A DNA stretch of 64,000 bases from Bauldia sp. (lineage in GTDB: Bacteria > Pseudomonadota > Alphaproteobacteria > Rhizobiales > Kaistiaceae), in contig JAHCJY010000002.1 in the NCBI GenBank assembly GCA_026126065.1, positions 434,001 through 498,000 on the forward strand, written 5' to 3'. Within the stretch, counting starts at the first letter, position 1. Each line of letters starts with the position of its first letter. Made by a program: the position numbers and the translations under genes. Below, piece by piece: positions 7,229-22,093 of this stretch. A model generated the notes under the pieces. It did not search any database, was not told where the DNA came from, and was given only the letters and a program-made list of their open reading frames with translations.

Positions 7229-8410
7229 GTGGCACTGCGGGATCAAACATTATTTGGCGTCATCGACGCGCTCGCTGTTGGACGTGCGGGCTGGACGGAC
7301 CTGGCGCTGGCGCTGCGAAATGCCTTTGGCGGACGTTATGCCTGGGCGCGGGTTCACAATGGCGACGGAACGCCGAGCCAGCAGATCCATGCGGCGGGCG
7401 ACTGGCAGGACGAGGGCCGCGCGCAGCGCTACCGGCACGGCCACTGGTCGGCCGACTTTCTGCTTGCGGCCCTGCTGACCGCACCCCCGGGCGAGCCCAT
7501 GCGGTGGTCGAGCCTCCATGCGCGCCCCGACATCGCCGAGGGCGAATACTACCGCGACTACATCCAGCCGCGGGACATCGATCATGTCATCGAATGCCTC
7601 GCGGTCGTTCCGAGCGGTCCGCTGATCCGCTTCGGCACCGGCAGGACCAAGGCCCAGCCCCCTTTCTCCAAGCGGGACGAGGAGCGCCTGCGGCGCGTGG
7701 CGCAACGTCTGCAGGGCGCGATCCGCATCCGCTACCTCAACACCGGCGGCGATTTCGGATTGAGCGACGGGATCGGCTTCGACCTCCTCCCGGAGGGTGT
7801 CGTCATGCTTGACGAGACCGGCAAGGCTTTCGCGGTCAATCTGGCGGCACGCCTTGCGCTCTCGAGGGTCCGAAGCCTTGCCATCATCGATGGCCGGCTG
7901 CACTGCCTCGGGGCCTCTGACGCCGGGTTGTCCCGGCTCATCGACGACGCCCTGCTGCAACGCCCGGCCGGCATCGTCGGCGAGATGGACGTATGCGCAG
8001 GGGACGGTCCGCAGCTCCGGATCCTCGTTGCCCGGATGCCGGTCGCAACCGGCTCCGACCGCGAGGTGCCGGTGATCATCCTGGGCGGCTATCGCGAGCC
8101 GGCAGCCACCTCGGAGGACATCTCGACCCTTGCCGGGCGATGGCGTCTGACGCCGAAGGAGGTCGAGATCGTGGTCAGGCTCGTCGAGGGCAGCAGCCTG
8201 GGCGCCGCCGCCGCGGCGATCGGGATCGCCTACGAGACGTCCCGCTTCCACCTGAAGAACATCTACCGCAAGGTCGGCGTGAACAATCAGGCCGCGCTCA
8301 CGCGCCTCTTCATCACCGACTACTACTGTTCGTCGGAGTGGCTCGGGCCGAGGCGAACCGACGAACGGCCGCGCCGGAGTGGCGAGCCCGCCCTGGCGCT
8401 GCCGAGCTAG
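7229..8410 (+). CDS. LuxR/NarL-type HTH regulator, stand-alone
   Basis: A 393-residue regulator with a C-terminal LuxR-type helix-turn-helix at about residues 308-372 (LTPKEVEIVVRLVEGSSLGAAA, then TSRFHLKNIYRKVGVNNQAAL). The N-terminal 300 residues resemble the PAS/GAF-like sensor part of many alphaproteobacterial regulators, but I recognise no autoinducer-binding pattern. The start is GTG at 7229, five bases after GGGAGG; a longer open frame from 7073 lacks such a site. It is divergent from ddl and opens the PQQ dehydrogenase block, so it is a candidate local regulator. No cognate kinase or synthase gene is adjacent. Confidence 0.85.
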   Translation: MALRDQTLFGVIDALAVGRAGWTDLALALRNAFGGRYAWARVHNGDGTPSQQIHAAGDWQDEGRAQRYRHGHWSADFLLAALLTAPPGEPMRWSSLHARPDIAEGEYYRDYIQPRDIDHVIECLAVVPSGPLIRFGTGRTKAQPPFSKRDEERLRRVAQRLQGAIRIRYLNTGGDFGLSDGIGFDLLPEGVVMLDETGKAFAVNLAARLALSRVRSLAIIDGRLHCLGASDAGLSRLIDDALLQRPAGIVGEMDVCAGDGPQLRILVARMPVATGSDREVPVIILGGYREPAATSEDISTLAGRWRLTPKEVEIVVRLVEGSSLGAAAAAIGIAYETSRFHLKNIYRKVGVNNQAALTRLFITDYYCSSEWLGPRRTDERPRRSGEPALALPS

Positions 8411-8453
8411 GTGCTGTGCCACGAAGCGCGCCCGCGAGCCGGCCCCTGCACGA

Positions 8454-8469
8454 CAACCCAATTGGGTTG
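8454..8469. promoter_or_regulatory. 16-bp perfect palindrome CAACCCAATTGGGTTG, copy 1
   Basis: Exact self-complementary 16-mer, 137 bases upstream of the ATG at 8606 and 44 bases after the LuxR-type gene. The same 16-mer recurs at 17802 and 17861 in front of two other transcription units of the block. Without a loop it is a poor RNA hairpin, so a dimeric-protein operator is the likelier reading. Confidence 0.6.
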
Positions 8470-8605
8470 GTGACACCCGGCAGCGGGCGACGTTCACATC
8501 CCTGAGGAGGGCGATAGTGGTGGAATTGCAGTTCGTTGCCGGGCCGCGGGCTGCCCTTTGGATCGCCGGCCGGGCTGCGCCGCCCGGTGTGACCCGCCGC
8601 GGCAG

Positions 8606-10117
8606 ATGACGGTCCTGGAAGGCCAGGCCGGGCTGCACGCCGGCGGCGGCCTCGAAGCCTTGCCGCGCCGCCTCGACGCGGCGTTGCGCCGGGTGCGCGC
8701 CGACCGGCTCCTGGCGACGCTGACGGTCGCCACTGCATTGGCCCTCGTCGCCTTCGGCTTCCTCGAATTCGCTAGCGTCTCCTTCGGCCTTCCGATCGAC
8801 CTCGGCGGACGCATCGCCGTGGCTTTGATCCTCGGCCTTGCGCTGGCAGCGGTGGGAACGGCGGCCGATGTCTTCGCGTGGCCGGGGCGCCTCGGCATCG
8901 CCCGCCGGGCCGACGTCCGGTTCGGGCTCGACGAAAGGCTGAGCACGGCGATCGAAATCGCCAGCCGCGGCAGTGACGCGGACGCGCCCGTGGTGGCGCG
9001 GGCCCTCCTCGCCGATGCCGAGCGGCGCGCGGGGTCGCTCGATCTTCGGGCGCTGGTCAAGGTGCCCTATGGACGCTACGCGCTTGCCGTCGCGGCGGCG
9101 GCCGTCTTTGCCGCAATCAGCCTCGCGCCGCCGGACTACGTCCCCCCTCGGGCCGAATTGGCGCGGCCGCAGCCGTCGACGACGCTGACCGCCACCGAGG
9201 TCGCCGACACGTTTGCCGAACTCCGACGCGTCGCCACCATCATGCAGAACGACGCAGCCCGGCGGGACGATCCCTTCCTCGAGGCGCTCGCCCGGGAGGC
9301 ACTCCGGATCGGCGAAGAAATCGAGGCGGGCCGGCTCACCGACCGCGACGCGGTCGTTGCGGCGCTCGATCGCCTTGCAGGCTTCACCGCCGAGGCGTAC
9401 CCGCCGGTCGCCGTGCCGGCGCCCGACTACGAGGAGAGCGGCGGCATCACTGAGCGTCCCGCGGAAGCGACGCAGATTCTGCGCGACCTCGCACGCGACC
9501 GCATGACGCCGCCCTCGGCGACCGAGACGGCCGCACGAACGCAGGACCAGCCACTTGTCGAGCCCGGCGACGCCGCGGCCGACATCCCGCCGATGATGGG
9601 CCTGCCGCCGCCGACCGCCGATGTCCCCAATCCGCAAGCGCCTGCGGGCGCCGAAGGCCAGCCGCCAACCGGTGGAGCGCCCGGAGCCGCCGACGACGAG
9701 GGCTATATCGAGGCGGCGGAGATGGAGACCTACACCGACCCGACCAACTATCGCGCCGAACGCACGGTCGGCGAGCGCCCCGAAAACGCCCAGCTGATCG
9801 GCCCGGCCGACGCGGCCAACACCGGCCAGAGCCGCTTCGCCGGCGCGGGCCAGCAGATGCTGAACGGACCGGTGGCGGAGGAAGACCCGTTCGCGCTGGG
9901 CGCCGACATGTTCCTCACCGGCCAGATCGACGAAACCGGCCGGCGCATCCGCATCGAGGTGCCGCCGGAAATCCAGGCGATTGCGATCCTCCCGGGCGAA
10001 GCGGCCGCGACGGAGTGGACCGCGCTCCGCGAGGTGGAGGCTCTCCGTACGGGCGTGCCGCTCGGTGCCCGGGACCTTCTTGCCCGGTATTTCAGGGCGG
10101 CGGCCGAGGCCGAATGA
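8606..10117 (+). CDS. Membrane protein partner of the VWA protein, function unknown
   Basis: A 503-residue protein with three hydrophobic segments (about residues 34-58, 68-92 and 155-172), then a soluble part with charged helices (about 190-270) and a long low-complexity Pro/Ala/Glu region. The C-terminal 60 residues look folded again (IEVPPEIQAIAIL). I do not recognise a family with certainty; it resembles the low-complexity membrane proteins encoded next to VWA/BatA-type genes. Its stop overlaps the start of the VWA gene as ATGA, so the two are coupled and probably act together. The start at 8606 is uncertain: the ribosome-binding site is weak and an ATG at 8558 is also in frame. Confidence 0.75.
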   Translation: MTVLEGQAGLHAGGGLEALPRRLDAALRRVRADRLLATLTVATALALVAFGFLEFASVSFGLPIDLGGRIAVALILGLALAAVGTAADVFAWPGRLGIARRADVRFGLDERLSTAIEIASRGSDADAPVVARALLADAERRAGSLDLRALVKVPYGRYALAVAAAAVFAAISLAPPDYVPPRAELARPQPSTTLTATEVADTFAELRRVATIMQNDAARRDDPFLEALAREALRIGEEIEAGRLTDRDAVVAALDRLAGFTAEAYPPVAVPAPDYEESGGITERPAEATQILRDLARDRMTPPSATETAARTQDQPLVEPGDAAADIPPMMGLPPPTADVPNPQAPAGAEGQPPTGGAPGAADDEGYIEAAEMETYTDPTNYRAERTVGERPENAQLIGPADAANTGQSRFAGAGQQMLNGPVAEEDPFALGADMFLTGQIDETGRRIRIEVPPEIQAIAILPGEAAATEWTALREVEALRTGVPLGARDLLARYFRAAAEAE

Positions 10118-13100
10118 CATTCATCGCGCCGGCCTGGCTTCTCGTCTTCGGCGCCGCCGCGCTCGTGCTGCTGCTGCACGCCCGCCGGCGACGCAGCGTC
10201 ACCGTCCCAAGCGTCCAGATCTGGCGTCTGATCGAGAGCGCCGGGAGCCGGCGGCCGAACATCCGCCGGCCGCCGCCGAGTCTTCCGCTCCTGCTCCAGT
10301 TGCTCGCCCTCCTCATCGCCGCGCTCGCCCTCGCCCAGCCGCGCTTCGGAGCCGCGCCCGACGATCACGTCGTCTTCCTCCTCGATGCCTCCGGCAGCAT
10401 GCGGACGACCGACCTGGCCCCGACGCGGTTCGACGCGGCCCGGACCCGCCTCGCCGGGATGGTCGAGACCCTCGGCGAGGCCGGAACGACCCGCATCTCG
10501 GTGATCGTAGCTTCAGCCGAGCCGGCGTTTGCGGTGGCCAGGCAGATCGAGGCCGGTGGAATCCTCCCTCTCCTCTCCGGGCTCGCGCCGCGGGATGGGG
10601 CGGCGGACTGGGCGGCCGCCGCAAGGCTCATCCCGGCCGTCGCGCGCGACGGCGAGACGATCCGGGTCGTGGCGCTCACCGATGATGACGCCGCCACCGC
10701 CGCCATCGCGGCGGCGCTGCCCGGCATGGCCGTCGAAGCCGTGCCGTTCGGAACCCCGGTCCCGAACCGCGCACTTACCGCGATCGTGACGCCCATCGAC
10801 GCGATCGCCGGCGTGTGGAGCGTCGCGGGCACCGTGCATCAATTCGGCGAGGCCGAGGCCGTGCCCGTGGACATCGCGGTCCTGTTTCGCCGCGCCGGCG
10901 ACGACGCCTATCTCGATTTCGGCACGATCGCCGTCACGCCGTCGGAGGCGCCGGTCGCCGCGACCGATGATGCGATGCCGCCCACGCGGACGGACTTCGC
11001 CGCCGAGCTCCGGTTCCCCGGGCCGGGCTCGCTGATTCTCCGCCTCCCGCCCGACATCGCGCCGCAGGACGACGCCACCTACTTCGTCCTCCAGCCAGCC
11101 ACGCCGGCACGCGTCCTCCTGATCGGCAACGCCCGGCCCGACCTCGTCCGGGCCCTCGGCGCCGCGGGGGTCGCGCTGTCGCAGGCCGACACCCTGCCGG
11201 CCGACCGCGGCGCGGCCTTCGACCTCGTCATCGTCAGCGATGTTGCCGTCGACCGGCAGCCGGCCACCAGCGTCCTGTGGCTGGAACGCGGCCGCCTCGC
11301 ATCGGAACCCGAGCCGGTTCCACTCGCCGACGCCTATTTCATCGCCTGGGATCGGGCGCATCCGCTGTCGGCGGAAATCGACTGGTCCGACGTTGCGGTA
11401 CCGCGGGCCTTTGCCCTGCCCGCCCGGGACGACGCCACGGTGATCGTTGCCGCCGAGGACGGGCCGATCATCGATGCCCGCACGACGGCCGCCGGCCGCG
11501 ATGTCCGGGTCGCGCTCGGCATCGATGCATCGCGGTGGGGCGAGGCGGCGAGCCTGCCGCTGTTCATCGCCAACCTCATCGACTGGCTCGCCGTTCCGGC
11601 CGGAGGCGGCGCCGGCTGCCTGGTCGACGCGCCGTGCCGCTTCCCCGCGGGCTTCACCCTTGCCGGGATCGCAGCGCCGGATTTCACGCCCGCCGCAGGG
11701 CCTGCCGCCGGGACCTTCCTGCCGGAGACCGCGGGATTCCATCTCTTCACCGGGCACGGCCGGACGATCGAGGTCGCGGTAAACCGCGACGGAGTGACGG
11801 AGAGCATCCCGCCGGAAACGCCCGCGGGCGTCGCCTACGCTCCGCCCACCGCCTTCTGGTGGCGTGTCCTCCTCGGTCTGGCGCTGGCGGTGCTGGCGAT
11901 CGAGGCGTTGGTCGCCGGACGTGGCGCCGAGCGCTTCTTCCGCCGCGGCGCGCTCCGGGGACGCGACGGCAGCGCCCGGCGGCGCCGCTTCCAGCTCGTC
12001 CTCCGCGGCCTCGCCCTCGCCGCGCTCGTGGCCGCCCTCGTGCCGGCCCCCTTCCCGGCGCGCGCTCCCACGGAGGCGATCGTCGTCGTCGATGCGACGG
12101 CGCCAACCGCCGGCGGCATCCCCGAAGGGCCTGGCCGCGTGGTGGCCGACAATCCGGCATTCCTGCAACGGGACATCGACGGTGTCGACGAGACTTCGGC
12201 CGGCCTCCGGTCCCCGGCGGGCATCGACCTTGAAGGCGCGCTCCGTCTCGCCGCAGCGCAGCTTCCCGCGGACATCGCGGGACGGATCGTCGTGACCGGA
12301 AACGGCGTGGCGACCACGGGCGATGCGATGGCCGCAATCCCGGAACTCGGCGAGCGTGGCATCCCGGTGGATATCCTGACCGTTCCCGCGATGGCGCCCG
12401 GCGAGGTTCTCGTCACCGCGGTCGAACCACCGCAGGCGTTGTTCGCGGGCGACCGCTTCACGCTCAACGCGTTCATTGCCAGCGCTGCCGCCGGTCCCGC
12501 GACCGTGACCATCCTTCGCGACGGCGAGGCGGTTTCCGCGCTCACCGTCGATCTCATCCCCGGCAGCAATCGCATCGAGGTGGCCTTCGAACCCGTCAGC
12601 GCGGGCGAGCACCTCTTCGAGGTCGCCGTGACGAAACCGGGCGACGTCACGGAGGCGAACAACCGCGACGGCGCCCTCGTCACGGTCCGCGCTGCCCCCA
12701 CGGTCATGGTGGTCGCGCCCGACGCCGAGTGGGGCGAGGTCTTTGCCGGGGCGCTGCGCATCCAGGGCTTCGACGCCAGCGTCGTCGCGCCGAACCGGAC
12801 GCCGCACCGGATGGGTCTGTGGCTCGACTACGACCTCGTCGTGCTCATGAACCTGCCGGCGATCGACCTCACCACGGCGCAGCAGGCGCTTCTCGCCGAC
12901 CTCGTCGAGGTTCACGGCCGCGGCCTTCTCATCCTCGGCGGCGAAAGCGCCTTTGGCCCGGGCGGATACTTCCAGACGGACCTCGAGCGCATCTCGCCCC
13001 TTTCGTCGCGCGTCCCGCAGGACGCTCCGGGCGCGGCGATCGTGTTCGTACTCGACCGTTCCGGCAGCATGATTGCGCCGGTCGGCGACACGAACCGCCT

Positions 13101-14415
13101 CGCCATCGCCAAGGAAGCGACGATCGCGGCGATGGAGCTCCTCCATCCCGAAACGCAGGTCGGCGTCGTCGTCTTCGATTCCGAGGCGCATCGGATCCTG
13201 CCGCTCCAGCGGAAGAACGAAGCCGCGCTCGAAGCAGCGCTGGCGCCTCTCCAGCCGGGCGGCGGCACCGAGCTGTACCCGGGCATCGCCGACGCGGTGG
13301 AGCAGCTCCTGACCACCGACGCGCAGGCAAAGCACATCGTCGTCATGACCGATGGCCTCCTCGGGCCGCGCGACTTCGCGCCGATCATCGCGGAGGCGAC
13401 GGCCGGCGGCATCACGATATCGGCGGTCGCCATCGGCAGCGCCGCCGACTTCCAGCGCGCCTCGCTGATCGCCCGCCTCGGCGGCGGTGCGTTCCATGCG
13501 ACGCAGGATTTCCGCGCGCTGCCCAGCATCCTGTCGCAGGAGGCGATGATGCTGTCGCGCTCGCCCCTCGAAGTGCGCGAGACGCCGGTCTTCTGGCTCG
13601 ACCGCTCGGCTCCTTTCCTCGCCGGGCTGCCCGCCGCGCTGCCGCCGCTGGACGCCTATGTCGTCACCACGGCCCGCGCCGGCGCGACGCTCCATCTCGG
13701 TGCCCAGGACGAGGAAGGCGAACTGGTGCCGATCCTCGCTTCGTGGCGCTACGGCAACGGCGAGGTGGCGGCCTTCGCCTCGCACGGCGCCGGCATCGGC
13801 TCGCAGCGCTGGCTCGGCATGGCGGAGTATCCCCTGTTCTGGGGCCAGATCGCGCGCCACCTCGTGCAGGTGCGACCGGGCGTCGGGTTGTGGGCCGATG
13901 CCGCCCGCCACGGCGACGCCGTGACGATCGAACTGGCCGCCCTCGATGTCGCCGGCCTGCCGCTGGCCGACGCCGCTCCCGTCATCGAGCTTCCCGCCGG
14001 CGTCACGGCCACGCCGTTCCGCGAGTTGGAACCGGGCCGCTACGAAACGACGGTGATGCGACCCGCTGCCGGACGCCTCGACGCGACGGTTCGGCTGGAG
14101 GACTTCAGCGTGGCCACGCCCACCTGGTTCGGCTATCCGGCGGCACTCGATTTCACGTCCGCGCGGCCGGACGACCTCGCGCGGATCGCAGCCGCGACCG
14201 GTGGCCAGCGGGTGACCGCCCTTCCCGCAGCACCGGCGCTGGAATGGACGTTGGCGCCGATCTGGCGCCCATGGATCGCCATCGCGCTGGCGTTCTTCCT
14301 CGCCGATCTGTGGGTTCGCTATGGAGCTATCCGCAGCCTGGGCAGACGGAGTGCTGCGCCAGTGACCGAGCGCGCACCGGACCCGGCACCATGGCTGGGA
14401 TCGAGCGCCGCCTAG
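10114..14415 (+). CDS. Giant membrane protein with BatA-type N-terminus and two VWA domains
   Basis: A 1433-residue protein that looks like two BatA/BatB-type proteins fused. It starts with a BatA-like two-helix anchor (PAWLLVFGAAALVLLL, then LLLQLLALLIAALALAQPRFG) and a first von Willebrand A domain with the MIDAS start LLDASGSM (about residue 89). Two more membrane helices follow at about 581-605 and 627-650. The second half has an extracytoplasmic region, a second VWA domain with VLDRSGSM (about residue 980), and a last membrane helix at about 1380-1405. VWA domains bind a divalent metal and mediate assembly. No MoxR ATPase or DUF58 gene, the usual partners, is next to it. It converges on the MxaJ-like gene with 18 bases between. 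mxaACKL proteins for methanol dehydrogenase assembly are a possible functional parallel (inference). Confidence 0.85.
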   Translation: MTFIAPAWLLVFGAAALVLLLHARRRRSVTVPSVQIWRLIESAGSRRPNIRRPPPSLPLLLQLLALLIAALALAQPRFGAAPDDHVVFLLDASGSMRTTDLAPTRFDAARTRLAGMVETLGEAGTTRISVIVASAEPAFAVARQIEAGGILPLLSGLAPRDGAADWAAAARLIPAVARDGETIRVVALTDDDAATAAIAAALPGMAVEAVPFGTPVPNRALTAIVTPIDAIAGVWSVAGTVHQFGEAEAVPVDIAVLFRRAGDDAYLDFGTIAVTPSEAPVAATDDAMPPTRTDFAAELRFPGPGSLILRLPPDIAPQDDATYFVLQPATPARVLLIGNARPDLVRALGAAGVALSQADTLPADRGAAFDLVIVSDVAVDRQPATSVLWLERGRLASEPEPVPLADAYFIAWDRAHPLSAEIDWSDVAVPRAFALPARDDATVIVAAEDGPIIDARTTAAGRDVRVALGIDASRWGEAASLPLFIANLIDWLAVPAGGGAGCLVDAPCRFPAGFTLAGIAAPDFTPAAGPAAGTFLPETAGFHLFTGHGRTIEVAVNRDGVTESIPPETPAGVAYAPPTAFWWRVLLGLALAVLAIEALVAGRGAERFFRRGALRGRDGSARRRRFQLVLRGLALAALVAALVPAPFPARAPTEAIVVVDATAPTAGGIPEGPGRVVADNPAFLQRDIDGVDETSAGLRSPAGIDLEGALRLAAAQLPADIAGRIVVTGNGVATTGDAMAAIPELGERGIPVDILTVPAMAPGEVLVTAVEPPQALFAGDRFTLNAFIASAAAGPATVTILRDGEAVSALTVDLIPGSNRIEVAFEPVSAGEHLFEVAVTKPGDVTEANNRDGALVTVRAAPTVMVVAPDAEWGEVFAGALRIQGFDASVVAPNRTPHRMGLWLDYDLVVLMNLPAIDLTTAQQALLADLVEVHGRGLLILGGESAFGPGGYFQTDLERISPLSSRVPQDAPGAAIVFVLDRSGSMIAPVGDTNRLAIAKEATIAAMELLHPETQVGVVVFDSEAHRILPLQRKNEAALEAALAPLQPGGGTELYPGIADAVEQLLTTDAQAKHIVVMTDGLLGPRDFAPIIAEATAGGITISAVAIGSAADFQRASLIARLGGGAFHATQDFRALPSILSQEAMMLSRSPLEVRETPVFWLDRSAPFLAGLPAALPPLDAYVVTTARAGATLHLGAQDEEGELVPILASWRYGNGEVAAFASHGAGIGSQRWLGMAEYPLFWGQIARHLVQVRPGVGLWADAARHGDAVTIELAALDVAGLPLADAAPVIELPAGVTATPFRELEPGRYETTVMRPAAGRLDATVRLEDFSVATPTWFGYPAALDFTSARPDDLARIAAATGGQRVTALPAAPALEWTLAPIWRPWIAIALAFFLADLWVRYGAIRSLGRRSAAPVTERAPDPAPWLGSSAA

Positions 14416-14433
14416 GTGGTCCCGGCCACCGTG

Positions 14434-15279
14434 CTACGGATTGCGCCGGAGGACGTCCGGCATCACGTCGAGGTAGAGCTGCGCCAGTTCGCCGCCGGCG
14501 GTGAGATCGGCGATCGCCTCGTCGATCAGCGTCCTGAGGAAATTGTCGACCGACTGGAGCGCCATGCCGAGGTTTCGCGTCGGCAGCGTGAGAGATCCGG
14601 TCGAGATGAGCGTGATCTGCGCAGGATCGACATAAGGCTGCTGCAGCCAGGGCTCCCAGATGAAGCCGGCGTCGACCGTGCCGTCGAGGACGCGGGTGAG
14701 CACGGAATTGCTGGTCGGCAGCGGAAAGCGGCGCCACGCCTGATCGGCGGGAAGCGTTCGGAAGAAGGCCGTGACGGTGCCGTCGACGGAAGTCATGGAC
14801 TGCGTGGCGATCGGCCGGTCGCGCGGCACCTCGAAGAGATCGGCGTAGGTGCCGGCCCGCGCGATCGCAACATACGGGATGCTGGCATAGGCGGCGGTGA
14901 AGGTGAGCCATTCCGGGTAGACGCCACCGGTGAGCAGCTCCATTCCGAGCAGCGCGTCGCAATTGTTGGTGAGGAAGATGAAGACCTCGTCCTCGCTGAT
15001 CGGGATACCGTCAAGACCGGTGACCCGTATGGTCGGCTGGATGTCGAAGAAGGCAGCGTCGAGGAAGAGCGCCTCCGCGATGAGCTCGGCCGCCGCGCGG
15101 TCGAGCGGCGCTGAGGGCGCCTGCGGGTAAATGCAGAACGTGATCGCCTCACCGTCGAGGCGGTTGGTGCGATCGAGGAATTCCGGACCGATCTCCGGCT
15201 GTGCGACCGCCGGAGCGGCGCCCCGCGCAATCATGACGAGGGCGAGTACCGCGCCGAGGGCCATCGTTGTTCGGTTCAT
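14434..15279 (-). CDS. Quinoprotein-associated periplasmic solute-binding-type protein (MxaJ/XoxJ-like)
   Basis: 281 residues with a clear Sec signal peptide (MNRTTMALGAVLALVMIARGAAPAVAQ). The mature part has the type-2 periplasmic binding fold pattern ending in a DGTVDAGFIWEPWL hinge, and the segment CDALLGMELLTG...WLTFTAAYASIPYVAIAR resembles MxaJ and XoxJ, which accompany quinoprotein alcohol dehydrogenases. The ATG at 15279 follows GAAGGG; longer open frame upstream is not coding. It lies 94 bases downstream of the dehydrogenase, behind a strong hairpin, so it is probably expressed at a lower level from the same transcript. MxaJ-type proteins are thought to help dehydrogenase maturation or activation rather than import. 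Confidence 0.8.
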   Translation of the reverse strand: MNRTTMALGAVLALVMIARGAAPAVAQPEIGPEFLDRTNRLDGEAITFCIYPQAPSAPLDRAAAELIAEALFLDAAFFDIQPTIRVTGLDGIPISEDEVFIFLTNNCDALLGMELLTGGVYPEWLTFTAAYASIPYVAIARAGTYADLFEVPRDRPIATQSMTSVDGTVTAFFRTLPADQAWRRFPLPTSNSVLTRVLDGTVDAGFIWEPWLQQPYVDPAQITLISTGSLTLPTRNLGMALQSVDNFLRTLIDEAIADLTAGGELAQLYLDVMPDVLRRNP

Positions 15280-15330
15280 CGATGCGCCCTTCGGAATGCC
15301 GGCGAGCCTGGTGTCGCCCTGCAAAGGAAA

Positions 15331-15356
15331 GGCGTGCGGGGTTTCCCCCGCACGCC
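15331..15356 (-). terminator. Strong hairpin after the PQQ dehydrogenase gene
   Basis: GGCGTGCGGGG and CCCCGCACGCC form an 11-bp perfect stem with a 4-base loop, followed on the minus strand by TTTCCTTTGC. It lies between the dehydrogenase stop and the MxaJ-like start and is likely an intrinsic (perhaps partial) terminator. Confidence 0.7.
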
Positions 15357-15373
15357 GATTGTCGGTCCGTCGC

Positions 15374-17125
15374 CTAGCCTTCCGGCAGGGCGAAGACGTA
15401 GAGCATGTTCCCGCCCGACGGGAACCGGATCTCCGGCGTCCGGGCCCTGTAGCGGCCGTTGCCGCCGACCGGGAAGGCGATGTACTGCGTGCCATCGACT
15501 TCGTAGGTCATCGGGTAGCCACGGAGCGAGGCGCTGACGCGCTGCTCCCACAGGATCTCGCCGTCCGTCGCGCGGTAGACGCGAAGGAGGTTGGCGTCGT
15601 CACCGGTGACGACGAGGCCGCCACCCGTGGTGAGCACCGACGAGCCGAAGCCCGCCCGCTGGATGTGCTGCCACAGGAACTCGCCGGTCTCGACGCTGAC
15701 CGCCGTGAACGCGCCGACATTGCCGTTGGCGCCTTCCCAGATCACCGCACGCGTGCGCGCCGAGCCGTGGTGGGCGCCGATGGTCGGCGTCACTTCGTTC
15801 AGCGTGTAGAAGTTGCACACATTGTTGACGGGCGCGTAGATCGCGTTCGTCTGCGGGCTGTAGGCCGGCGACTGCCAGTTGATGCCACCGCCTGCGCTCG
15901 GGCAGACGAAGGTCTCGACGCCGATCGGCACCATCAGTTCGGGGTTCGAGATACCACGACGGTTTTCGGGCTCAACATCGACCATCGCGTTCTGGTAGTT
16001 GGTCGGCGTCGCCCACAGGAAGTCCCCCGTGGCGGCGTCGAGCGTCCAGACGATGCCGGTCTTGCCTGGGATGCCGGTCACGACCGTCCGGGTCTCGCCC
16101 GGGGTCAGGTCGTCGGCGATCCACTGCACCTCGCCGGCGGTCGGCGCGACGGCCGTGTCGACGACCATGCGGGCGAAGGGATGGTCGAGGTCCCAGTACT
16201 CGTTCGCCATATGCTGGAAGTACCAGACGATCTCGCCGGTATCCTCGTCGATGGCGATGGTCGAGTTGGTGTACAGCACATCGCCGTCACCGGTGCCGCG
16301 CTGCGGCGAGCCCCACGGAATCGGCACCGCGACGCCGTAGTAGATGAGGCCGAGCTCGGGGGCGTAGGCGCCCGCGTTCCAGGCCGAACCGCCGTAGCGG
16401 GCCTCGAGCGGAACGCCGTTCCACGTCTCGTCGCCGAACTCGCCCGGCCCCGGGATCGTGTAGGTCCGCCACAGCTCCTCGCCGGTCTCGGTGTCGTGCG
16501 CCGAGATCCAGCAGCGGCTGTTGATGTAGTAGCAGCCGGACATGCCGGCGATCAGCTTGCCGCCGAAGATCTGCGGCCCGCCGGAGTAGTGGTGGCCGAT
16601 GGTCCAGTCGCCGACCTGCTGTTCCCACACCACTTCGCCGGTGCGGACATCGAGCGCGATCAGGAACGCGTCGTGGGTGGCGATGTACAGCTTGTCCCCG
16701 TACAGCACCGGGTTGCGGTTGCCGCAGGCGAGGCCCGCCGCATGATCGACGACGTCGCGGCGATACTCCCACAGCAGGGCGCCGTTGGTCGCATCCACGG
16801 CCTGCGTGAAGTCGCAGCCCTGGACCATGAACATGACGCCGTCATGCACGAGCGGCGTCATCTCGTTGCTCGCCGGGTCGAGCGTCACCGCCCAGGCAAG
16901 GTTCAGGTCGTCGACGTTGTCGGCGTTGACCTGGTCGAGCGGGCTGTAGCCCCAGTTGCCGTAGTTGCGACGCCACATCAGCCAGTCGCCGTCGGCCGGA
17001 TTGGCCAGCATCTCGTCAGTGACCGGCGTCCAGTTGTCGAACGCTGTGGTCTGCGCCGTCGCGGCAATGGGTGTTCCGGCAATCGCGCCGAACACCGCCA
17101 GTTTGAGTAATCCCCTGTATCTCAT
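15374..17125 (-). CDS. PQQ-dependent alcohol dehydrogenase-type quinoprotein with altered metal site
   Basis: 583 residues: signal peptide cut near AATAQ, then an eight-bladed propeller with tryptophan-docking motifs such as LDVRTGEVVW, HDTETGEELW and GKTGIVWTLDAATGDFLW. In methanol/ethanol dehydrogenases the metal is held by a Glu, an Asn and an Asp near PQQ. Here the catalytic Asp is kept in WDLD (Asp312, with Asp314 in the position typical of lanthanide enzymes), but the Glu position reads SGCYY (Cys198) and the Asn position reads GVAVP (Val267). The vicinal Cys-Cys pair is reduced to one Cys (Cys134 in LACGNRNP). The ATG at 17125 follows GGGAGG. The cytochrome c gene upstream is the likely electron acceptor. 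Substrate cannot be told from sequence. Confidence 0.85.
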   Translation of the reverse strand: MRYRGLLKLAVFGAIAGTPIAATAQTTAFDNWTPVTDEMLANPADGDWLMWRRNYGNWGYSPLDQVNADNVDDLNLAWAVTLDPASNEMTPLVHDGVMFMVQGCDFTQAVDATNGALLWEYRRDVVDHAAGLACGNRNPVLYGDKLYIATHDAFLIALDVRTGEVVWEQQVGDWTIGHHYSGGPQIFGGKLIAGMSGCYYINSRCWISAHDTETGEELWRTYTIPGPGEFGDETWNGVPLEARYGGSAWNAGAYAPELGLIYYGVAVPIPWGSPQRGTGDGDVLYTNSTIAIDEDTGEIVWYFQHMANEYWDLDHPFARMVVDTAVAPTAGEVQWIADDLTPGETRTVVTGIPGKTGIVWTLDAATGDFLWATPTNYQNAMVDVEPENRRGISNPELMVPIGVETFVCPSAGGGINWQSPAYSPQTNAIYAPVNNVCNFYTLNEVTPTIGAHHGSARTRAVIWEGANGNVGAFTAVSVETGEFLWQHIQRAGFGSSVLTTGGGLVVTGDDANLLRVYRATDGEILWEQRVSASLRGYPMTYEVDGTQYIAFPVGGNGRYRARTPEIRFPSGGNMLYVFALPEG

Positions 17126-17160
17126 TCCAACTCCCTCCCTTGTTCCTTGTTGGCAGCTGC

Positions 17161-17183
17161 CACCGGCCCAGTCGGGGCCGGTG
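17161..17183 (-). terminator. Hairpin between cytochrome c and PQQ dehydrogenase genes
   Basis: CACCGGCCC and GGGCCGGTG pair perfectly (9 bp, 5-base loop) in the 93-base gap between the two genes. No T-run follows on the minus strand, so an attenuator or mRNA processing signal that sets the two expression levels apart is as likely as a terminator. Confidence 0.5.
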
Positions 17184-17218
17184 AATTGGCGACGGCCATC
17201 CCCCCTCGTGCCGCGCCG

Positions 17219-17713
17219 CTATGGCGCGGCGGGAGGCGGCGGACCGAAAATGATTGCCCCGAGCGCTGCCTCGTCTGTCGGCAGTTCGGTCTCGCCCGCG
17301 GGATAGTTGTTGCTCTTCAGGATCAGCGCGATGATCCCGGCGGTCTGCGCGGGGGTCATCGTGCCCGGCCGGTCGGCGGGCATGTTTTCCTGCGTGAACT
17401 GGAAGAGCTCCAGCAGTGTCCGGCTCTCCCAGTATTGCGTGAATGCAAAGCCCGCGAGCGGCGGCGCGAGCGCCGTGCCGTTCAGCGTGGCGCCATGGCA
17501 GGTGACGCAGCTCCGCGTGTAGAGGGCCCGAATCTCCTCGGCCTGTGCTTCCGTGTAGACGCCGGTCAGCGCTGTGCCGGCGGTCTCGTCGGCGGGAGCC
17601 GCCGCGTCAGGCGTGGGCGGCGTTCCCTGGGCGATGGACAGCCCGGCGCCACTGCAGGTGAGGAGGGCTGCGCCGATCGAGATTGAAAGAATGCGGGTAG
17701 AAAGCCGCGGCAT
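17219..17713 (-). CDS. Periplasmic mono-haem cytochrome c
   Basis: 164 residues with a Sec signal peptide (MPRLSTRILSISIGAALLTC, processed near LSIAQG), a Pro/Ala linker and one haem site SCVTCH (Cys69, Cys72, His73). A Met in NMPADRPG is a candidate axial ligand, as in class I cytochromes, and the C-terminus is Pro-rich. The ATG at 17713 follows GAAGGAA; an ATG at 17752 would put 13 residues before the signal peptide. It is the first gene before the PQQ dehydrogenase, so it should carry electrons from PQQ to the respiratory chain, like cytochrome c550 of ethanol oxidation systems. Confidence 0.88.
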   Translation of the reverse strand: MPRLSTRILSISIGAALLTCSGAGLSIAQGTPPTPDAAAPADETAGTALTGVYTEAQAEEIRALYTRSCVTCHGATLNGTALAPPLAGFAFTQYWESRTLLELFQFTQENMPADRPGTMTPAQTAGIIALILKSNNYPAGETELPTDEAALGAIIFGPPPPAAP

Positions 17714-17801
17714 TGCTGGATTCCTTCGAGTAGGTTCAGGGTGTGCGCGCACGCACGCGGCCCCGAAAAGAGAGAGTCATTTGGTCGCAGGTGTGGCACA
17801 A

Positions 17802-17817
17802 CAACCCAATTGGGTTG
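17802..17817. promoter_or_regulatory. 16-bp perfect palindrome CAACCCAATTGGGTTG, copy 2
   Basis: Second exact copy, in the divergent region between the cytochrome c gene (start 17713) and the ABC transporter operon (start 17947). It is 89 bases upstream of the cytochrome start, and copy 3 begins 59 bases further right. Confidence 0.6.
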
Positions 17818-17834
17818 GAGCGCCAATGGCGCTC
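17818..17834. repeat. Short hairpin between palindrome copies 2 and 3
   Basis: GAGCGCC-AAT-GGCGCTC, a 7-bp perfect stem with a 3-base loop, directly abutting palindrome copy 2. It may be part of the same operator region or belong to the 5' leader of the ABC operon. Confidence 0.45.
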
Positions 17835-17860
17835 GCAACGGGAGGGACATATCCGATGGG

Positions 17861-17876
17861 CAACCCAATTGGGTTG
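17861..17876. promoter_or_regulatory. 16-bp perfect palindrome CAACCCAATTGGGTTG, copy 3
   Basis: Third exact copy, 71-86 bases upstream of the ABC ATPase start at 17947. Spacing to copy 2 is 59 bp start to start, which would allow looping or two bound dimers on roughly similar helix faces. Confidence 0.6.
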
Positions 17877-17946
17877 TGGGTGTCTGCGCGGGCGGCCGCT
17901 AGCGTCGGACATCCTGGAAAGCCCGCACGGAGCAGGTCGGACGGGC

Positions 17947-18948
17947 ATGGTCGGGGGTGATGTGAGCGAAGGGACCGCACCGGTCGTCGAGATCGCCGGC
18001 CTGGGCAAGCGCTATGGCCGGACGCTCGCCCTTGACGGAATTGATCTGTCCATTGGCAGGAACGAGGTTTTCGCGCTTCTCGGCCCGAACGGGGCAGGCA
18101 AAACGACGCTCATCCACATCCTGTGCACGCTTCTGAAGCCCGACACCGGCACGGCGCGGATCGCAGGGTTCGACGTCTCGCGCCAGCCGCTCAAGGCGCG
18201 GCGGCAGCTCGGCGTCGTGTTCCAGGAGCCCAGCCTCGACAGCCGCCTCACCGTCCAGGAGAACCTCAACTTCCACGGCCTGGTGCACCGCGTGCCGTTT
18301 CGCCTCCGGCGGCGGCGGATCACGGAGATGCTGGAACTGGTCGAGCTGACGGAGTGGCGTCACGCATTGGTCCGGACCCTGTCGGCCGGCATGAAGCGGC
18401 GGGTCGAGATCGCCCGCGCGCTCATCCACGACGCGGCGGTCGTGATCCTCGACGAGCCGACCGTCGGCCTCGACGCCCAGTCGCGCGAGCGCATCTGGGC
18501 CTATCTCGGCAAGCTCCGGCGCGAGCGCGAACTGACCCTCATCGTCACGACCCACTACATCGACGAGGTGGACAGCTGCGACCGGGTCTGCATCGTGGAC
18601 CACGGCAAGATTCTGGCGCTCGACACGCCCGAGGCGCTGAGGGCGCGCTATGGCGTCGAGCAGGTCCGCATCACGCCGCGGGACCTTGCGACGCGAACCG
18701 GGATCATGGAGCAGAACCCCAACGCCATTGCCGAGGCCAGTGGCGACATCGTCCTTCCGGGCGCCACGCACGGGGTGGTCGACCGGCTCCTCGGCGGCTT
18801 CGGTACCGGCATCAGCAATATCAGCATCGAACGGCCGAGCCTGGAGAGCGTGTTCCTCACGCTCACCGGCCGCGAGATTCGCGACCAGGCGGCGGAACGA
18901 CCGACCTTGGCCCGGCCCAACGCCCGCACGGGCGAGCCGGTGAACTGA
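17947..18948 (+). CDS. ABC-2 type transporter ATP-binding protein, quinoprotein-associated
   Basis: 333 residues, a typical export-type ABC ATPase: Walker A GPNGAGKT at about residues 46-53, Q-loop VVFQEP, signature LSAGMKRR (a common variant in this subfamily), Walker B VVILDEPTVGLD and the switch histidine in VTTHYIDE. A C-terminal extension of about 80 residues is usual for ABC-2 partners. It resembles the ATPases found with PQQ alcohol dehydrogenases (PedC-type systems, from memory). The start is uncertain between ATG 17947 and GTG 17962, which follows GGGGGTGAT. It heads a compact five-gene operon to 22093. Confidence 0.9.
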   Translation: MVGGDVSEGTAPVVEIAGLGKRYGRTLALDGIDLSIGRNEVFALLGPNGAGKTTLIHILCTLLKPDTGTARIAGFDVSRQPLKARRQLGVVFQEPSLDSRLTVQENLNFHGLVHRVPFRLRRRRITEMLELVELTEWRHALVRTLSAGMKRRVEIARALIHDAAVVILDEPTVGLDAQSRERIWAYLGKLRRERELTLIVTTHYIDEVDSCDRVCIVDHGKILALDTPEALRARYGVEQVRITPRDLATRTGIMEQNPNAIAEASGDIVLPGATHGVVDRLLGGFGTGISNISIERPSLESVFLTLTGREIRDQAAERPTLARPNARTGEPVN

Positions 18949-18954
18949 CCGCCA

Positions 18955-19761
18955 ATGCTGGGGGCACTGGGAGGCATCTACGCGATCTGGCTGCGCGAGG
19001 TGAAGCGGGCGATCCGCGACCGCGGCCAGTTCATCGGCGGCCTCAGCCGGCCTCTCGTCTGGGTGCTCATCCTCGGCATCGGGCTGAACCCTTATTTCCG
19101 TGCCGAGATCTACGGCGACGTGCGCTTCGTCGTTCCTTACACCTACCTCCAGTTCCTCTTCCCGGCCGTCATCGTCCTCAACGTGATGTACACGGGGGTC
19201 CAGTCCGCCGTGTCGATGATCTGGGACCGCGAGTTCGGCTTCCTCAAGGAGGTGCTCACCTCCCCGATGCCGCGCAGCCACATCCTTTTCGGCAAGATCC
19301 TCGGCGGCGCCACGGTGGCCTTCGCCCATGGCTGCCTGGTGCTTCTGATCGCGCAGTTCACCGACGTGTCGCTGCGCATGACCGATCTCTACCTCGGCCT
19401 CCTCCTGATGTTCGGGCTTGGCTTCGGACTGACCTGCGTCGGTGCGGTGATCGCCAACCGCATCAGGAGCTTCGAGGGCTTCGGCGTCTTCTCGAACGTG
19501 GTGATCCTGCCGCTCTACTTCACGTCGAGCTCGATCTTCCCGCTCAATCCGGCCCTCTCCGGTTCGCAGACCCGCGTGGTCTACCCCGAGTGGCTGGTCG
19601 CCGTCATCAAGGCGAACCCCGTCACCTATGCCGTCGATGCCCTGCGCGGTGTCTTCATCGGCTTCAACCAGTTCGATCCCGGCATCGGGCCTGTCGTGAT
19701 CGCCGCCATCGCGATCGTCGGCTTCGCGGTCGCCCTGTTCGACTTCTCGAGGCAGTCATGA
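18955..19761 (+). CDS. ABC-2 type permease, first paralogue
   Basis: 268 residues with six hydrophobic segments and the ABC-2 family landmarks WLREVKRAIRDRG near the N-terminus and NPVTYAVDALRG near the C-terminus. It starts 6 bases after the ATPase stop. The second permease (20386-21252) is a close paralogue over its whole length, with shared stretches such as NPYFRAE, DRRFV-like VRFVVPY and SFEGFGVFSN, so the transporter may use a heterodimeric membrane part. What is exported is unknown; related transporters accompany quinoprotein dehydrogenases. Confidence 0.9.
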   Translation: MLGALGGIYAIWLREVKRAIRDRGQFIGGLSRPLVWVLILGIGLNPYFRAEIYGDVRFVVPYTYLQFLFPAVIVLNVMYTGVQSAVSMIWDREFGFLKEVLTSPMPRSHILFGKILGGATVAFAHGCLVLLIAQFTDVSLRMTDLYLGLLLMFGLGFGLTCVGAVIANRIRSFEGFGVFSNVVILPLYFTSSSIFPLNPALSGSQTRVVYPEWLVAVIKANPVTYAVDALRGVFIGFNQFDPGIGPVVIAAIAIVGFAVALFDFSRQS

Positions 19762-19777
19762 CGCGCCGGGGGTCGCC

Positions 19778-20386
19778 ATGTTCGACCTGAGCGGCCAGCA
19801 GGTCCTGTTCCGCATCGGCTCGGCGCTGTTCATCACCGGCGTCCACGGCTATGCCATGGCGATCGTCGCGCGCCTGATGGGTGATCCCGGTCCCGGCTAT
19901 GACGGACGGCGGACGATCAACCCGCTGCAGCACGGGCAATTCCTCGGTTTGCTGTCGATGGTCCTGTTTCGCATCGGCTGGATCAAGCCGATGGCCGTGG
20001 ACGCCGGACTGCTGCGCGGCGGCAGGGCCGGACTGTTCGTCGTCGTGCTTGGGTCGCTTGCCGCAACCCTCCTGGTCGCCTGGGGCCTCTGGCTCCTGCG
20101 CCCCTGGCTCCTCACCACCTTCGTCGGCACGAGCGCCATTCAGTCGACGGTGCTGTGGTTCGAGAACGTGGCGATGATGTCGGCCGCCTTCGTGGTCTTC
20201 AACCTCATCCCGATCCCGCCTTTCGCGGCCGGGCTGATCCTCTCCGGCTATGCCCCGCGTCTGCATGCACTTCTCGTCCGCCGCATCATCCTGCCGGCGG
20301 CGGCCTTTGCGGCCGTGCTCTACTTCGCCGATCGTGCCGGCCTCGTTGCGCCGCTCTATCGAAGCATCGCGAGGTGGTTCTTCTGA
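19778..20386 (+). CDS. Catalytically degenerate site-2 protease (M50) homologue
   Basis: 202 residues, about five membrane segments. It aligns with M50 proteases of the S2P type: VHGYAMAIVARLMGDP stands where active members have VHEYAHA, so the catalytic Glu and second His of HExxH are Gly and Met. The downstream GRRTINPLQH and GWIKPMAVD match the conserved GRLTLNPLAH and GWAKPVPV parts. The second metal motif NLxPIPPxDG reads NLIPIPPFAAG, so the ligand Asp is Ala. It is therefore probably a pseudo-protease with a binding or scaffold role. The ATG follows GGGGGTCGCC, and its stop overlaps the next permease start by one base. Confidence 0.8.
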   Translation: MFDLSGQQVLFRIGSALFITGVHGYAMAIVARLMGDPGPGYDGRRTINPLQHGQFLGLLSMVLFRIGWIKPMAVDAGLLRGGRAGLFVVVLGSLAATLLVAWGLWLLRPWLLTTFVGTSAIQSTVLWFENVAMMSAAFVVFNLIPIPPFAAGLILSGYAPRLHALLVRRIILPAAAFAAVLYFADRAGLVAPLYRSIARWFF

Positions 20387-21252
20387 TGACCGACCGGACC
20401 GCCACCGATCCCGCCGCAAGGACGGCCGCGGCCGAAGGCGACGGCCGCAGCTTCGGTGCGCTGGGGGCGCTGGGCGGCATCTGGCTGCGCGAGGTGAAGC
20501 GGGCGCTGCGCGATCGCGGCCAGCTCGTCGGCGGCGTCAGCCGGCCGCTGCTGTACATCCTCATCATGGGGATCGGCCTCAACCCCTACTTCCGCGCCGA
20601 GGTCTACGGCGAGGTGAGGTTCGTCGTCCCCTACTCCTATCTCCAGTTCATCTTTGCCGGCGTCGTCGTCCTCAACGTCATGTATACCTCGGTCCAGTCC
20701 GCCGTTTCGGTGATCTGGGACCGCGAATTCGGCTTCCTGCGCGAGGTCCTCGTCGCCCCAGTACCGCGTTTCGTCGTCGTCCTCGGCAAGGTGCTGGGTG
20801 GCGCCACGGTTGCGACGCTGCACGGCTGCATCGTCCTCCTCTTCGCCTATTTCGCCGATGTCGAGCTCATGCTGGGCGACATCGTCGCCGCGATCGGCCT
20901 CATCTTCCTCCTCGCCTTCTGCCTCACCTCGCTCGGCATCGCGATCGCCCATCAGGTGCGGTCCTTCGAAGGATTCGGCGTGTTCTCGAACGCGGTCATC
21001 CTGCCGCTGTTCTTCACCTCGAGCTCGGTGTTCCCGCTCGATCCGTCGCTGTCGCGGACTCAGCTCCTGGTCCTTTACCCCGAGTGGCTGGTGACGGTGA
21101 TCTACGCCAACCCGCTCACCTACGCCGTCGATGCGCTGCGCGGAAAACTGATCGGATTCAACCAGTTCGATCCTTCCGCCGGGCCGACGATCCTCGCGAT
21201 CCTGTCGGTGGTGTTCTTCTACTTCGCGCTGCGGGGGTTCCGCCGTGGCTAG
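20386..21252 (+). CDS. ABC-2 type permease, second paralogue
   Basis: 288 residues, six hydrophobic segments, and a 25-residue polar N-terminal extension compared with the first permease. Core motifs are the same (WLREVKRALRDRG, NPLTYAVDALRG). The ATG at 20386 overlaps the TGA of the pseudo-protease gene, and its own end overlaps the next gene by 8 bases, so this operon is tightly coupled. The two permeases enclosing a dead M50 protein suggest that all three form one membrane complex (inference). Confidence 0.9.
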   Translation: MTDRTATDPAARTAAAEGDGRSFGALGALGGIWLREVKRALRDRGQLVGGVSRPLLYILIMGIGLNPYFRAEVYGEVRFVVPYSYLQFIFAGVVVLNVMYTSVQSAVSVIWDREFGFLREVLVAPVPRFVVVLGKVLGGATVATLHGCIVLLFAYFADVELMLGDIVAAIGLIFLLAFCLTSLGIAIAHQVRSFEGFGVFSNAVILPLFFTSSSVFPLDPSLSRTQLLVLYPEWLVTVIYANPLTYAVDALRGKLIGFNQFDPSAGPTILAILSVVFFYFALRGFRRG

Positions 21253-22093
21253 GGAAGGCAAGGGCACCGGCCGCCGCTCGATCCGCGGCGACATCATCAG
21301 CGCCCTTGCGGTGCTCGGCCTCGTCGTCGGCGTCTCCTTCCTGCCGCCGGACACGTCGCTCGCCCTCATCCGCCAGACCGGGGCGCTCCGGGTTTGCGTA
21401 CCGCCGTCCTACCCGCCGCTCGTTCTCAGCGGCGATCCGCGCGGCGCCGGTTACGATATCGACCTCCTTACCGAGGTGGGGCGCCGGCTAGAACTCCGCG
21501 TCAGCTTCGCCACGAACGCGGCCATCACCCGCGACTTCAACCCGCGCAGCTGGGGGATCACCCGGGCCCAGTGCCAGCTCATCGCGGGCGGCGTGGTCGC
21601 CTCGCCGACCACGCGCTCATTCCTCGATACGTCGCCCGCCTACCTCCAGTCCGGCTGGGCGATCGTCTCGCCCGGCCCGATCGAGTCGCTCGAAGGCGTA
21701 TCGGTCGGCTTCTTCGCCGGCCTCTCCGGCCTCGACCGGCTCGGCCTCAGCCGCTACCTCCGCGACGCCGGCGCCGATATCGCGGTGGTTTCTTCGCGCG
21801 AGGCGCTGATCGACGGGATCGCCTCCGGACGATTTGCCGCCGGCGTCACCGAGGCGCTCACCGCCCGCACCATCGCCGGTGACGTCGAGGAATGGACCGT
21901 CGCCTGGATGCCGGAACGGCTCGGCCGCTACGACATCGCCATCGGCCTCTGGAAAGGCGACCTCACCCTCAAGCGCGCCATTGCCGCGGTCGTCGAGGAC
22001 CTCAGGGCCGAGGGCTTCCTGCTGGCGCTCGACGAGAAATACGACATCGCCCCGATCGAGGGCACGCTGCCGGACGCCACCGCCGCCCGCTGA
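21245..22093 (+). CDS. Family-3 solute-binding-type protein, membrane-anchored
   Basis: 282 residues. A basic N-terminus and one hydrophobic segment (IISALAVLGLVVGVSFLPP) make an uncleaved anchor or signal peptide. The rest follows the SBP_bac_3 pattern: GALRVCVPPSYPPL, GAGYDIDLLTEVGRRL, CQLIAGGVVASPTTRSFLDTSPAYL and a C-terminal ALDEKYDIAP. The start is GTG at 21245, 8 bases inside the preceding permease gene. It closes the ABC operon and ends 5 bases before murB, which is convergent. Related proteins accompany quinoproteins, so this and the MxaJ-like protein may be two divergent members with linked roles. Confidence 0.85.
   Translation: MAREGKGTGRRSIRGDIISALAVLGLVVGVSFLPPDTSLALIRQTGALRVCVPPSYPPLVLSGDPRGAGYDIDLLTEVGRRLELRVSFATNAAITRDFNPRSWGITRAQCQLIAGGVVASPTTRSFLDTSPAYLQSGWAIVSPGPIESLEGVSVGFFAGLSGLDRLGLSRYLRDAGADIAVVSSREALIDGIASGRFAAGVTEALTARTIAGDVEEWTVAWMPERLGRYDIAIGLWKGDLTLKRAIAAVVEDLRAEGFLLALDEKYDIAPIEGTLPDATAAR

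Follow-up and report, generated by a model that had tools for sequence, protein, structure and literature searches.

To our knowledge, the entry of metal and pyrroloquinoline quinone (PQQ) into periplasmic quinoproteins is understood in broad terms at best, and chiefly in the case of methanol dehydrogenase, the enzyme that the products of mxaRSACKL are held to mature. A MoxR-class AAA+ ATPase and a von Willebrand factor A (VWA) partner with a metal ion-dependent adhesion site (MIDAS) also serve a respiratory metalloenzyme in NorQ/NorD and related pairs; for NorQ/NorD, iron insertion into nitric oxide reductase is described in PMC13036017. PedA1A2BC and LutABEF combine a DrrA/PedB-type ATPase, an ABC-2 permease and a binding protein beside PQQ dehydrogenases, and according to excerpts of PMC6839425 and PMC7391723, Pseudomonas putida and Methylorubrum require related ABC genes to use lanthanides. 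The window analysed here is a stretch of 64,000 nucleotides (positions 434001-498000 of contig C2) from the 3.46-Mb draft genome of Bauldia sp. It contains an island of eleven genes between ddl (5853-6773) and murB (22099-23076) of the dcw cluster: a PQQ dehydrogenase with a cytochrome c and an MxaJ/XoxJ-like protein, a double-VWA membrane protein with a membrane partner, an ABC-2 operon including a solute-binding-type protein (SBP) and a pseudo site-2 protease (pseudo-S2P), and a LuxR-type regulator. Gene content, order and coordinates were as a first-pass annotation had given them. Judged from sequence, the island is probably one copy of a conserved quinoprotein maturation or service system with an attached transporter, a reading to which we assign a probability of about 0.62. 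Searches of the open-licence PubMed Central literature brought up no paper that places a MoxR/VWA module next to quinoproteins other than methanol dehydrogenase, or a pseudo-S2P in a PQQ cluster, and in the excerpt of PMC10301637, on four PQQ enzymes oxidising deoxynivalenol, no mention of MoxR, von Willebrand, ABC transporter, gene neighbours or a gene cluster was found.

Co-occurrence of the island genes

Of 274 relatives, 80 were taken (31 weaker matches, L125-L155, were left out) and neighbourhoods were scanned by profiles, giving 31 loci with a full-length fused VWA gene (~1400 aa) and 22 with separate halves or one half (L099, L101, L103, L104 and L106-L123). The fused loci are the 33 context loci with a VWA match above 600 bits minus L091 and L094 (partial gene); the duplicates L027/L032 (= L076), L067 (= L082) and L071 (= L096) were excluded. 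A PQQ dehydrogenase was counted as present above 150 bits. One relative scan scored two candidates per genome, so that its counts are lower bounds, and the third copy of the Bauldia genome itself was found separately.

The membrane partner was present in all 31 fused-VWA loci and in none of the 22 split-VWA loci. A PQQ dehydrogenase accompanied 23 of the 31 fused loci compared to 0/22 split ones (Fisher 1.4e-08, kinship ignored). MoxR was found in 25, DUF58 in 23, the pseudo-S2P in 17 and the SBP in 16 of the 31. Co-occurrence across genomes, which the first-pass annotation had suggested as a check on its reading, proved favourable: the whole set of PQQ dehydrogenase, MxaJ-like protein, pseudo-S2P, partner, VWA, MoxR, DUF58, ABC ATPase, permease and SBP, cytochrome c not being required, occurred in 14 of the 31. 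These loci belong to several bacterial families and include a metagenome-assembled genome (MAG) of Deinococcota, namely, L076 (Bauldia), L084 (Arsenicitalea), L085, L086, L088, L089 and L092 (Devosia), L096, L100 and L124 (Pelagibacterium), L093 (Pseudoroseicyclus), L098 (Roseitranquillus), L090 (Truepera bin119, the MAG) and G177. In L102, another MAG of the Trueperaceae, partner, MoxR, DUF58, VWA and two PQQ enzymes are present. Eight fused loci are devoid of a dehydrogenase (G001_C36, G223, L077, L079, L081, L095, L097 and L105); in L077 and L081, the contig ends with a weak PQQ match. L095 is a MAG labelled Bacillota with partner, MoxR, DUF58 and fused VWA in this order and no PQQ enzyme in 17.9 kb; its label or the spread of the module is uncertain.

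Within the Bauldia genome (G000), all three fused-VWA copies lie at most 3.2 kb from a PQQ dehydrogenase (~2e-4 by chance). The copy on contig C6 consists of MoxR, PQQ dehydrogenase, MxaJ-like protein, cytochrome c, partner and VWA. That on contig C4 (78001-106000, L158/L159) has both MoxR and DUF58 besides partner and VWA, and further comprises an MxaJ/XoxJ-like protein, a PQQ dehydrogenase and a small gene resembling a cytochrome. The C4 enzyme is XoxF-like, with WDYD, a vicinal CC and XoxF-type enzymes as best PDB matches (4mae, 321 bits), which suggests that the VWA/MoxR/DUF58 module also serves lanthanide-type enzymes. A DUF58 query over the genome found one strong place, at C4. MoxR and DUF58 are the module members that the window locus lacks, which the first-pass annotation could not see.

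The operons of the island are further tied together in this lineage by a perfect 16-bp palindrome, CAACCCAATTGGGTTG. One copy (8454-8469) stands upstream of the partner-VWA operon, and two copies 59 bp apart (17802-17817 and 17861-17876) separate the divergent cytochrome c/dehydrogenase and ABC operons; shuffles of the window gave an expectation of 0.01. With up to one mismatch, the palindrome occurs at these three sites only in the 3.46-Mb genome (~0.0003 copies expected from base composition) and, in the same-genus genome G001, at two sites only, both before the ABC operon and 60 bp apart. It was not found in same-genus G002 with up to one mismatch nor in 27 other stretches with up to three, and a reversed control pattern gave no matches in the same search. 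The palindromes noticed earlier are therefore not only shared by the operons but private to the island within the genome. The binder is probably the LuxR-type protein (7229-8410, plus strand), which carries a C-terminal GerE helix-turn-helix (Pfam GerE 2.5e-07) and, by binding the palindrome, would switch the VWA, ABC and dehydrogenase operons jointly. Its open reading frame (ORF) opens at 7073 (445 aa), with the coding signal starting at 7229 according to the coding score, and a counterpart at the same place in G001 is 77% identical as a protein.

The independent occurrence of the parts, named beforehand as the outcome that would speak against one system, was found in part: the close relative G001 has VWA and ABC genes without the dehydrogenase, and the C4 and C6 copies have VWA and quinoprotein without ABC or S2P genes. 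The island is therefore best described as two coupled sub-modules, quinoprotein with VWA/MoxR and ABC-2 with SBP and pseudo-S2P, which usually travel together. The idea of one system is largely right in view of co-occurrence and the private palindrome, with the restriction that the two parts are not always found together.

Pseudo-protease and transporter

The gene of the pseudo-S2P (202 aa, 19778-20386, plus strand) lies inside the ABC operon in both the window and G001. Its AlphaFold2 model (pLDDT 90.2) shows an S2P fold. In the structure comparison with VIA-align, the highest score was obtained for 3b4r (Z 9.8, rmsd 4.4 over 155 residues) followed by RseP and SpoIVFB, and the top eight rows were all S2P with Z 9.8 to 6.9; plain Foldseek gave no match with E < 0.001. 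Pfam M50 matched 15 of 18 island-type relatives (17 from fused-VWA neighbourhoods and one from G009) at E up to 1, the best at 6.8e-07. The protein thus appears, from its model, to share the fold of the site-2 proteases (M50). It differs from them in the active site, as HExxH is replaced by HGYAM and the DG motif by AAG. HExxH was present in 0/18 of the relatives, with Glu and second His absent in all; the Gly in place of the Glu is invariant (18/18), and the first His is also lost in three. An ordinary S2P of G001 is intact with HEYAH and LDG. The earlier description as a dead S2P homologue agrees with the missing catalytic motif of the island protein.

Of the 17 loci with a pseudo-S2P, 16 also have the SBP, which is found in 0/14 of the fused loci without S2P; its presence hence tracks the SBP/ABC set (16/17) rather than the VWA set (17/31). 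Because of this distribution and the position of its gene in the ABC operon, we propose that the pseudo-S2P is a subunit or adaptor of the transporter. In G009, no PQQ enzyme match was found within the 20 kb examined around the pseudo-S2P; elsewhere, however, this genome has numerous PQQ enzymes, and parts of a fused VWA stand at the ends of its contigs. Six other searched members of the family (G003-G008) had neither an S2P match of the island kind nor a fused VWA. Paralogous dead S2P genes are also conserved between G000 and G001 at another place, where PQQ genes are lacking (L029, 9718-10323; L030, 9996-10601).

The remainder of the operon, all on the plus strand, encodes a DrrA/PedB-like ABC ATPase (17947-18948), ABC-2 permease 1 (18955-19761; Pfam ABC2_membrane 2e-23), its paralogue permease 2 (20386-21252; 1.8e-24) and the SBP_bac_3 protein (21245-22093; Pfam 7.6e-09) with an N-terminal hydrophobic anchor (segment 17-35). 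The permease genes are 79% and 68% identical in DNA over two 300-nt stretches. ATPase and permease resemble DrrAB and PedBC, yet they stay below the curated cut-offs with 296 bits for DrrA (cut-off 312), 231 for TIGR03864 (302) and, for permease 2, 121 for TIGR03861 PedC (241). The operon is similar to PedA1A2BC and LutABEF in its combination of ATPase, permease and binding protein beside a PQQ dehydrogenase. It differs from them in these sub-threshold scores, in having two permeases and a pseudo-S2P and in the lack of a PedA2-type beta-propeller gene, the dehydrogenase being the sole beta-propeller gene of the island. The operon had been called an exporter, which is not borne out by the sequence, as the SBP argues at least equally for import. 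Passages of PMC6839425 show the authors arguing for import in P. putida from the presence of a binding protein, and Methylorubrum lutA/E/F mutants held La in the periplasm according to the excerpt of PMC7391723. A TauABC/NMT1-like importer lies in or near Devosia-type islands (L071, 4502-7296; L084, 17322-18973; L066, 8167-9998) and is possibly a second transporter for the same ligand.

A rival explanation disputes the attachment of this transporter to the maturation system: only VWA/MoxR and the dehydrogenase would belong together, and ABC-2, SBP and pseudo-S2P would be a separate, merely co-regulated transport of substrate, product or lanthanide like PedA1A2BC. The C4 and C6 copies as well as L078, L080 and L083, which combine quinoprotein and VWA without ABC, SBP or S2P, agree with this, and so does the need for related ABC genes in lanthanide use (passages of PMC6839425 and PMC7391723). 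However, the ABC set with S2P shares one island with VWA in 16 of 17 loci, Devosia-type islands have a single run from DUF58 and ABC through to permease and SBP, and G001 keeps VWA and ABC genes without the enzyme. We regard the separation as a possible explanation, though clearly the less probable one.

Double-VWA protein, MoxR and relation to mxa genes

The double-VWA protein (1433 aa, 10114-14415, plus strand) was matched by Pfam to the BatA N-terminus and, in two stretches, to VWA_2. Its layout is a BatA-like N-terminus, VWA1, a linker with two transmembrane (TM) segments, VWA2 with an intact MIDAS and a C-terminal TM segment. In VWA2, the MIDAS residues D981, S983, S985, T1052 and D1080 (DxSxS-T-D) are invariant in 8/8 aligned proteins; the DxSxS of VWA1 is complete in six of the eight. 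Five strong hydrophobic stretches are common to all eight (in the window ~3-21, 56-74, 585-603, 628-646 and 1388-1406), and the hydrophobicity/charge analysis located positive charge in the segments that join stretches 1-2 and 3-4 and behind stretch 5. Due to this charge pattern, both VWA domains are predicted by the positive-inside rule to face the periplasm, which is also the predicted location of the signal-bearing dehydrogenase, the cytochrome and the MxaJ-like protein. The partner (503 aa, 8606-10117, plus strand) has three hydrophobic stretches and no Pfam or NCBIfam match. Its model (pLDDT 69.6, pTM 0.41), with low confidence in the C-terminal part, was judged too weak for a fold search. 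Given that MoxR-DUF58-VWA-VWA is the usual order in non-fused loci, the giant protein would most simply have arisen when two adjacent genes of such a generic operon fused.

For comparison with mxaRSACKL, six mxa operons were taken from relatives of the order via the methanol dehydrogenase beta-subunit family. A search for this subunit across the class gave 0/190 with the controls silent as well, and an order-wide search was used instead: MxaI (PF02315) had matches in 36 of 297 genomes of the order and none in the Bauldia genome itself. In local profile comparison (hhalign), the island MoxR matched MxaR with 99.9% probability, the island-type DUF58 matched MxaS with 98.5%, and the N- and C-terminal halves of the VWA protein matched MxaC with 94.3% (columns 3-141, first membrane segments included) and 94.7%, respectively. 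MxaJ-like and cytochrome c neighbours beside a PQQ dehydrogenase are a further likeness. The partner reached 0.5% with MxaA and 0.2% with MxaK in the profile comparison, where a missing match is no proof of unrelatedness. The systems differ in the fusion of two VWA units, the missing MxaI and the additional ABC-2, SBP and pseudo-S2P genes in the island.

When 42 MoxR proteins were placed in a maximum-likelihood tree, those of fused-VWA loci, 25 in number, formed one group (99/96) and the six MxaR another one (100/100) on a long branch, while eleven generic MoxR fell on the side of the fused group and not with MxaR; the sampling started from VWA similarity, and other MoxR lineages are not represented. 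As the tree separates the island MoxR from MxaR, descent of the module from mxaRSACKL is unsupported for MoxR. Most simply, a generic MoxR-DUF58-VWA-VWA operon would have been recruited to quinoproteins independently, as a counterpart of mxaRSACKL. The module resembles NorQ/NorD in its MIDAS-bearing VWA protein, which is accompanied by a MoxR ATPase at 25 of the 31 fused-VWA loci though not at the window locus. In contrast to these, its VWA domains are predicted to be periplasmic with five hydrophobic segments as anchor, and its client would be a soluble periplasmic quinoprotein.

VWA/MoxR might otherwise be a general BatA-type device for periplasmic quality control or stress, which accompanies quinoproteins for oxidative or aldehyde stress without any cofactor insertion. 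Such a role would suit the BatA N-terminal domain, the widespread generic MoxR-DUF58-VWA-VWA operons without PQQ enzymes and the G223 and L097 copies, which lack a nearby PQQ enzyme. It is at odds with the tie of the fused form and its partner to quinoproteins and with the single clade of MoxR from fused loci, and we consider it unlikely.

Dehydrogenase, proposed mechanism and genomic setting

The dehydrogenase (583 aa, 15374-17125, minus strand) was matched by Pfam PQQ at 1.3e-52. It has WDLD at the catalytic Asp and no vicinal CC. With 345 bits, it is below the cut-off of 480 for TIGR03075 (PQQ methanol/ethanol dehydrogenase); by its Pfam and PDB matches, it is still a relative of the PQQ dehydrogenases. 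The nearest solved structures are 9m2c, 4cvb, 7wmd and the sorbose dehydrogenase 4mh1 (376-399 bits), a group that we take to include a Pseudogluconobacter enzyme and enzymes that oxidise deoxynivalenol. Much higher scores against this group were reached by the island enzyme of Arsenicitalea (740-788 bits, 788 on 4mh1). The group differs from the window enzyme in having WDQE or WDSE instead of WDLD. Island enzymes of Devosiaceae mostly have WDQE and those of Bauldia mostly WDLD, and the MxaF of a relative has WDYA. Outside the XoxF/ExaF groups, an acidic residue two positions after the catalytic Asp (+2) is not known to be diagnostic, and a lanthanide reading from the +2 Asp was not drawn, as sister enzymes have Glu. 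The window enzyme had no match above 48% in G001, G002 or G009. By contrast, identities of 63-92% to G001 were found for the VWA protein, its partner and the products of the ABC operon, so that the enzyme looks like the exchangeable and the service genes like the stable part of the system. G002 contains 56 PQQ-dehydrogenase-like matches in its 3.2-Mb genome, several in a tandem array with MxaJ-like genes (L027/L033). The cytochrome c (17219-17713, minus strand; heme motif CVTCH, Pfam Cytochrome_CBB3 8.8e-10) is the likely electron acceptor. The MxaJ/XoxJ-like protein (14434-15264, minus strand) has a signal-like N-terminus, no Pfam or NCBIfam match and ~30% identity (27-34%) to its counterparts, which are encoded next after the PQQ dehydrogenase in other islands.

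The observations on gene content and co-occurrence, on the palindrome common to the operons, on the lost protease site and on the separate MoxR clade lead us to infer the following functions. The dehydrogenase would be exported and oxidise a sugar- or alcohol-type substrate in the periplasm, passing electrons to the adjacent cytochrome c, and the MxaJ-like protein would act as its periplasmic assembly factor. The double-VWA protein in the inner membrane, together with the partner, a cytosolic MoxR ATPase and DUF58, may remodel the apo-dehydrogenase for insertion of metal (Ca2+ or a lanthanide) and/or PQQ, similar to the iron insertion by NorQ/NorD and to the role in which mxaRSACKL is held to serve methanol dehydrogenase. 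As the window copy lacks MoxR and DUF58, it must borrow both if it works as the family does; C4 could supply either of them and C6 MoxR alone. Together with the binding protein tethered to the membrane, the ABC-2 transporter would move a small ligand of the same process, namely, metal, a chelate, PQQ or product, and the dead S2P would be its fixed membrane subunit or adaptor. Of the maturation, metal-handling or product-export system suggested in the first-pass annotation, maturation with a transporter is the best reading, and export is not supported.

Several observations weigh against this reading. The window copy itself has neither MoxR nor DUF58, and the genome has ~17 PQQ-dehydrogenase genes versus three modules, which are thus no general need of quinoproteins. 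G001_C36, G223, L097 and L105 are without a dehydrogenase despite at least 6 kb on both sides, as is L095 with flanks of 3.5 and 10 kb, and G001 keeps VWA, ABC and S2P genes at the same place with no PQQ dehydrogenase between them. The motif does not pin down the metal, as WDLD and WDQE forms occur side by side, and there is little to back the name MxaJ-like. Nor does the model explain by what route a MoxR in the cytosol would act on VWA domains in the periplasm.

The location inside the dcw cluster, as first described, is supported by relatives: ddl and murB are neighbours in two other family members, where their matches are 36 (G003) and 710 bp (G008) apart. The distance is 3.1 kb in G002, and in G001 the gap holds a version of the island and a further 6.6 kb before murB (L025 15140 to L026 1529). 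Judging from sequence starts, we take these additional genes to encode an SBP-like protein, a 1049-aa cyclase-like protein, a branched-chain-type SBP and a CRP-like regulator. Chance insertion of three unrelated units (PQQ cluster, BatA-type operon, ABC transporter) into the same gap would fit the genes taken up there in G001 and G002 and the missing dehydrogenase of G001, but it is highly improbable, as many genera have the same genes side by side, differently ordered and at different places, and as the operons share a private palindrome. In the window, the dcw order is broken again after murB (23158-28361) by DksA, a histidine phosphatase, YcjX (DUF463), DUF697 proteins and an alpha/beta hydrolase. 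Just outside the cluster (42941-44352) are a small ORF and another one that presumably encode a GIY-YIG-looking protein and an IS30-like transposase.

A bolder form of the maturation reading, which we put forward tentatively and with more doubt than belief, is a second, independently evolved quinoprotein 'metallatase'. The double-VWA machine, driven by MoxR/DUF58, would load metal, possibly a lanthanide, and PQQ into several quinoprotein classes including XoxF-like ones and would be supplied by an ABC-2 transporter with a dead S2P as structural subunit. As a subunit or adaptor, the pseudo-S2P would represent a pseudoprotease linked to an ABC transporter. The module stands beside sorbose/alcohol-type and XoxF-like enzymes and occurs in named Devosia and Pelagibacterium strains, the complete island being present in Devosia equisanguinis and Pelagibacterium lacus, which makes the maturation question testable outside the methylotrophs. 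If the module is needed for activity, this could also explain the poor heterologous yields of such enzymes, some of which are useful in the production of vitamin C precursors or in the detoxification of deoxynivalenol, a mycotoxin.

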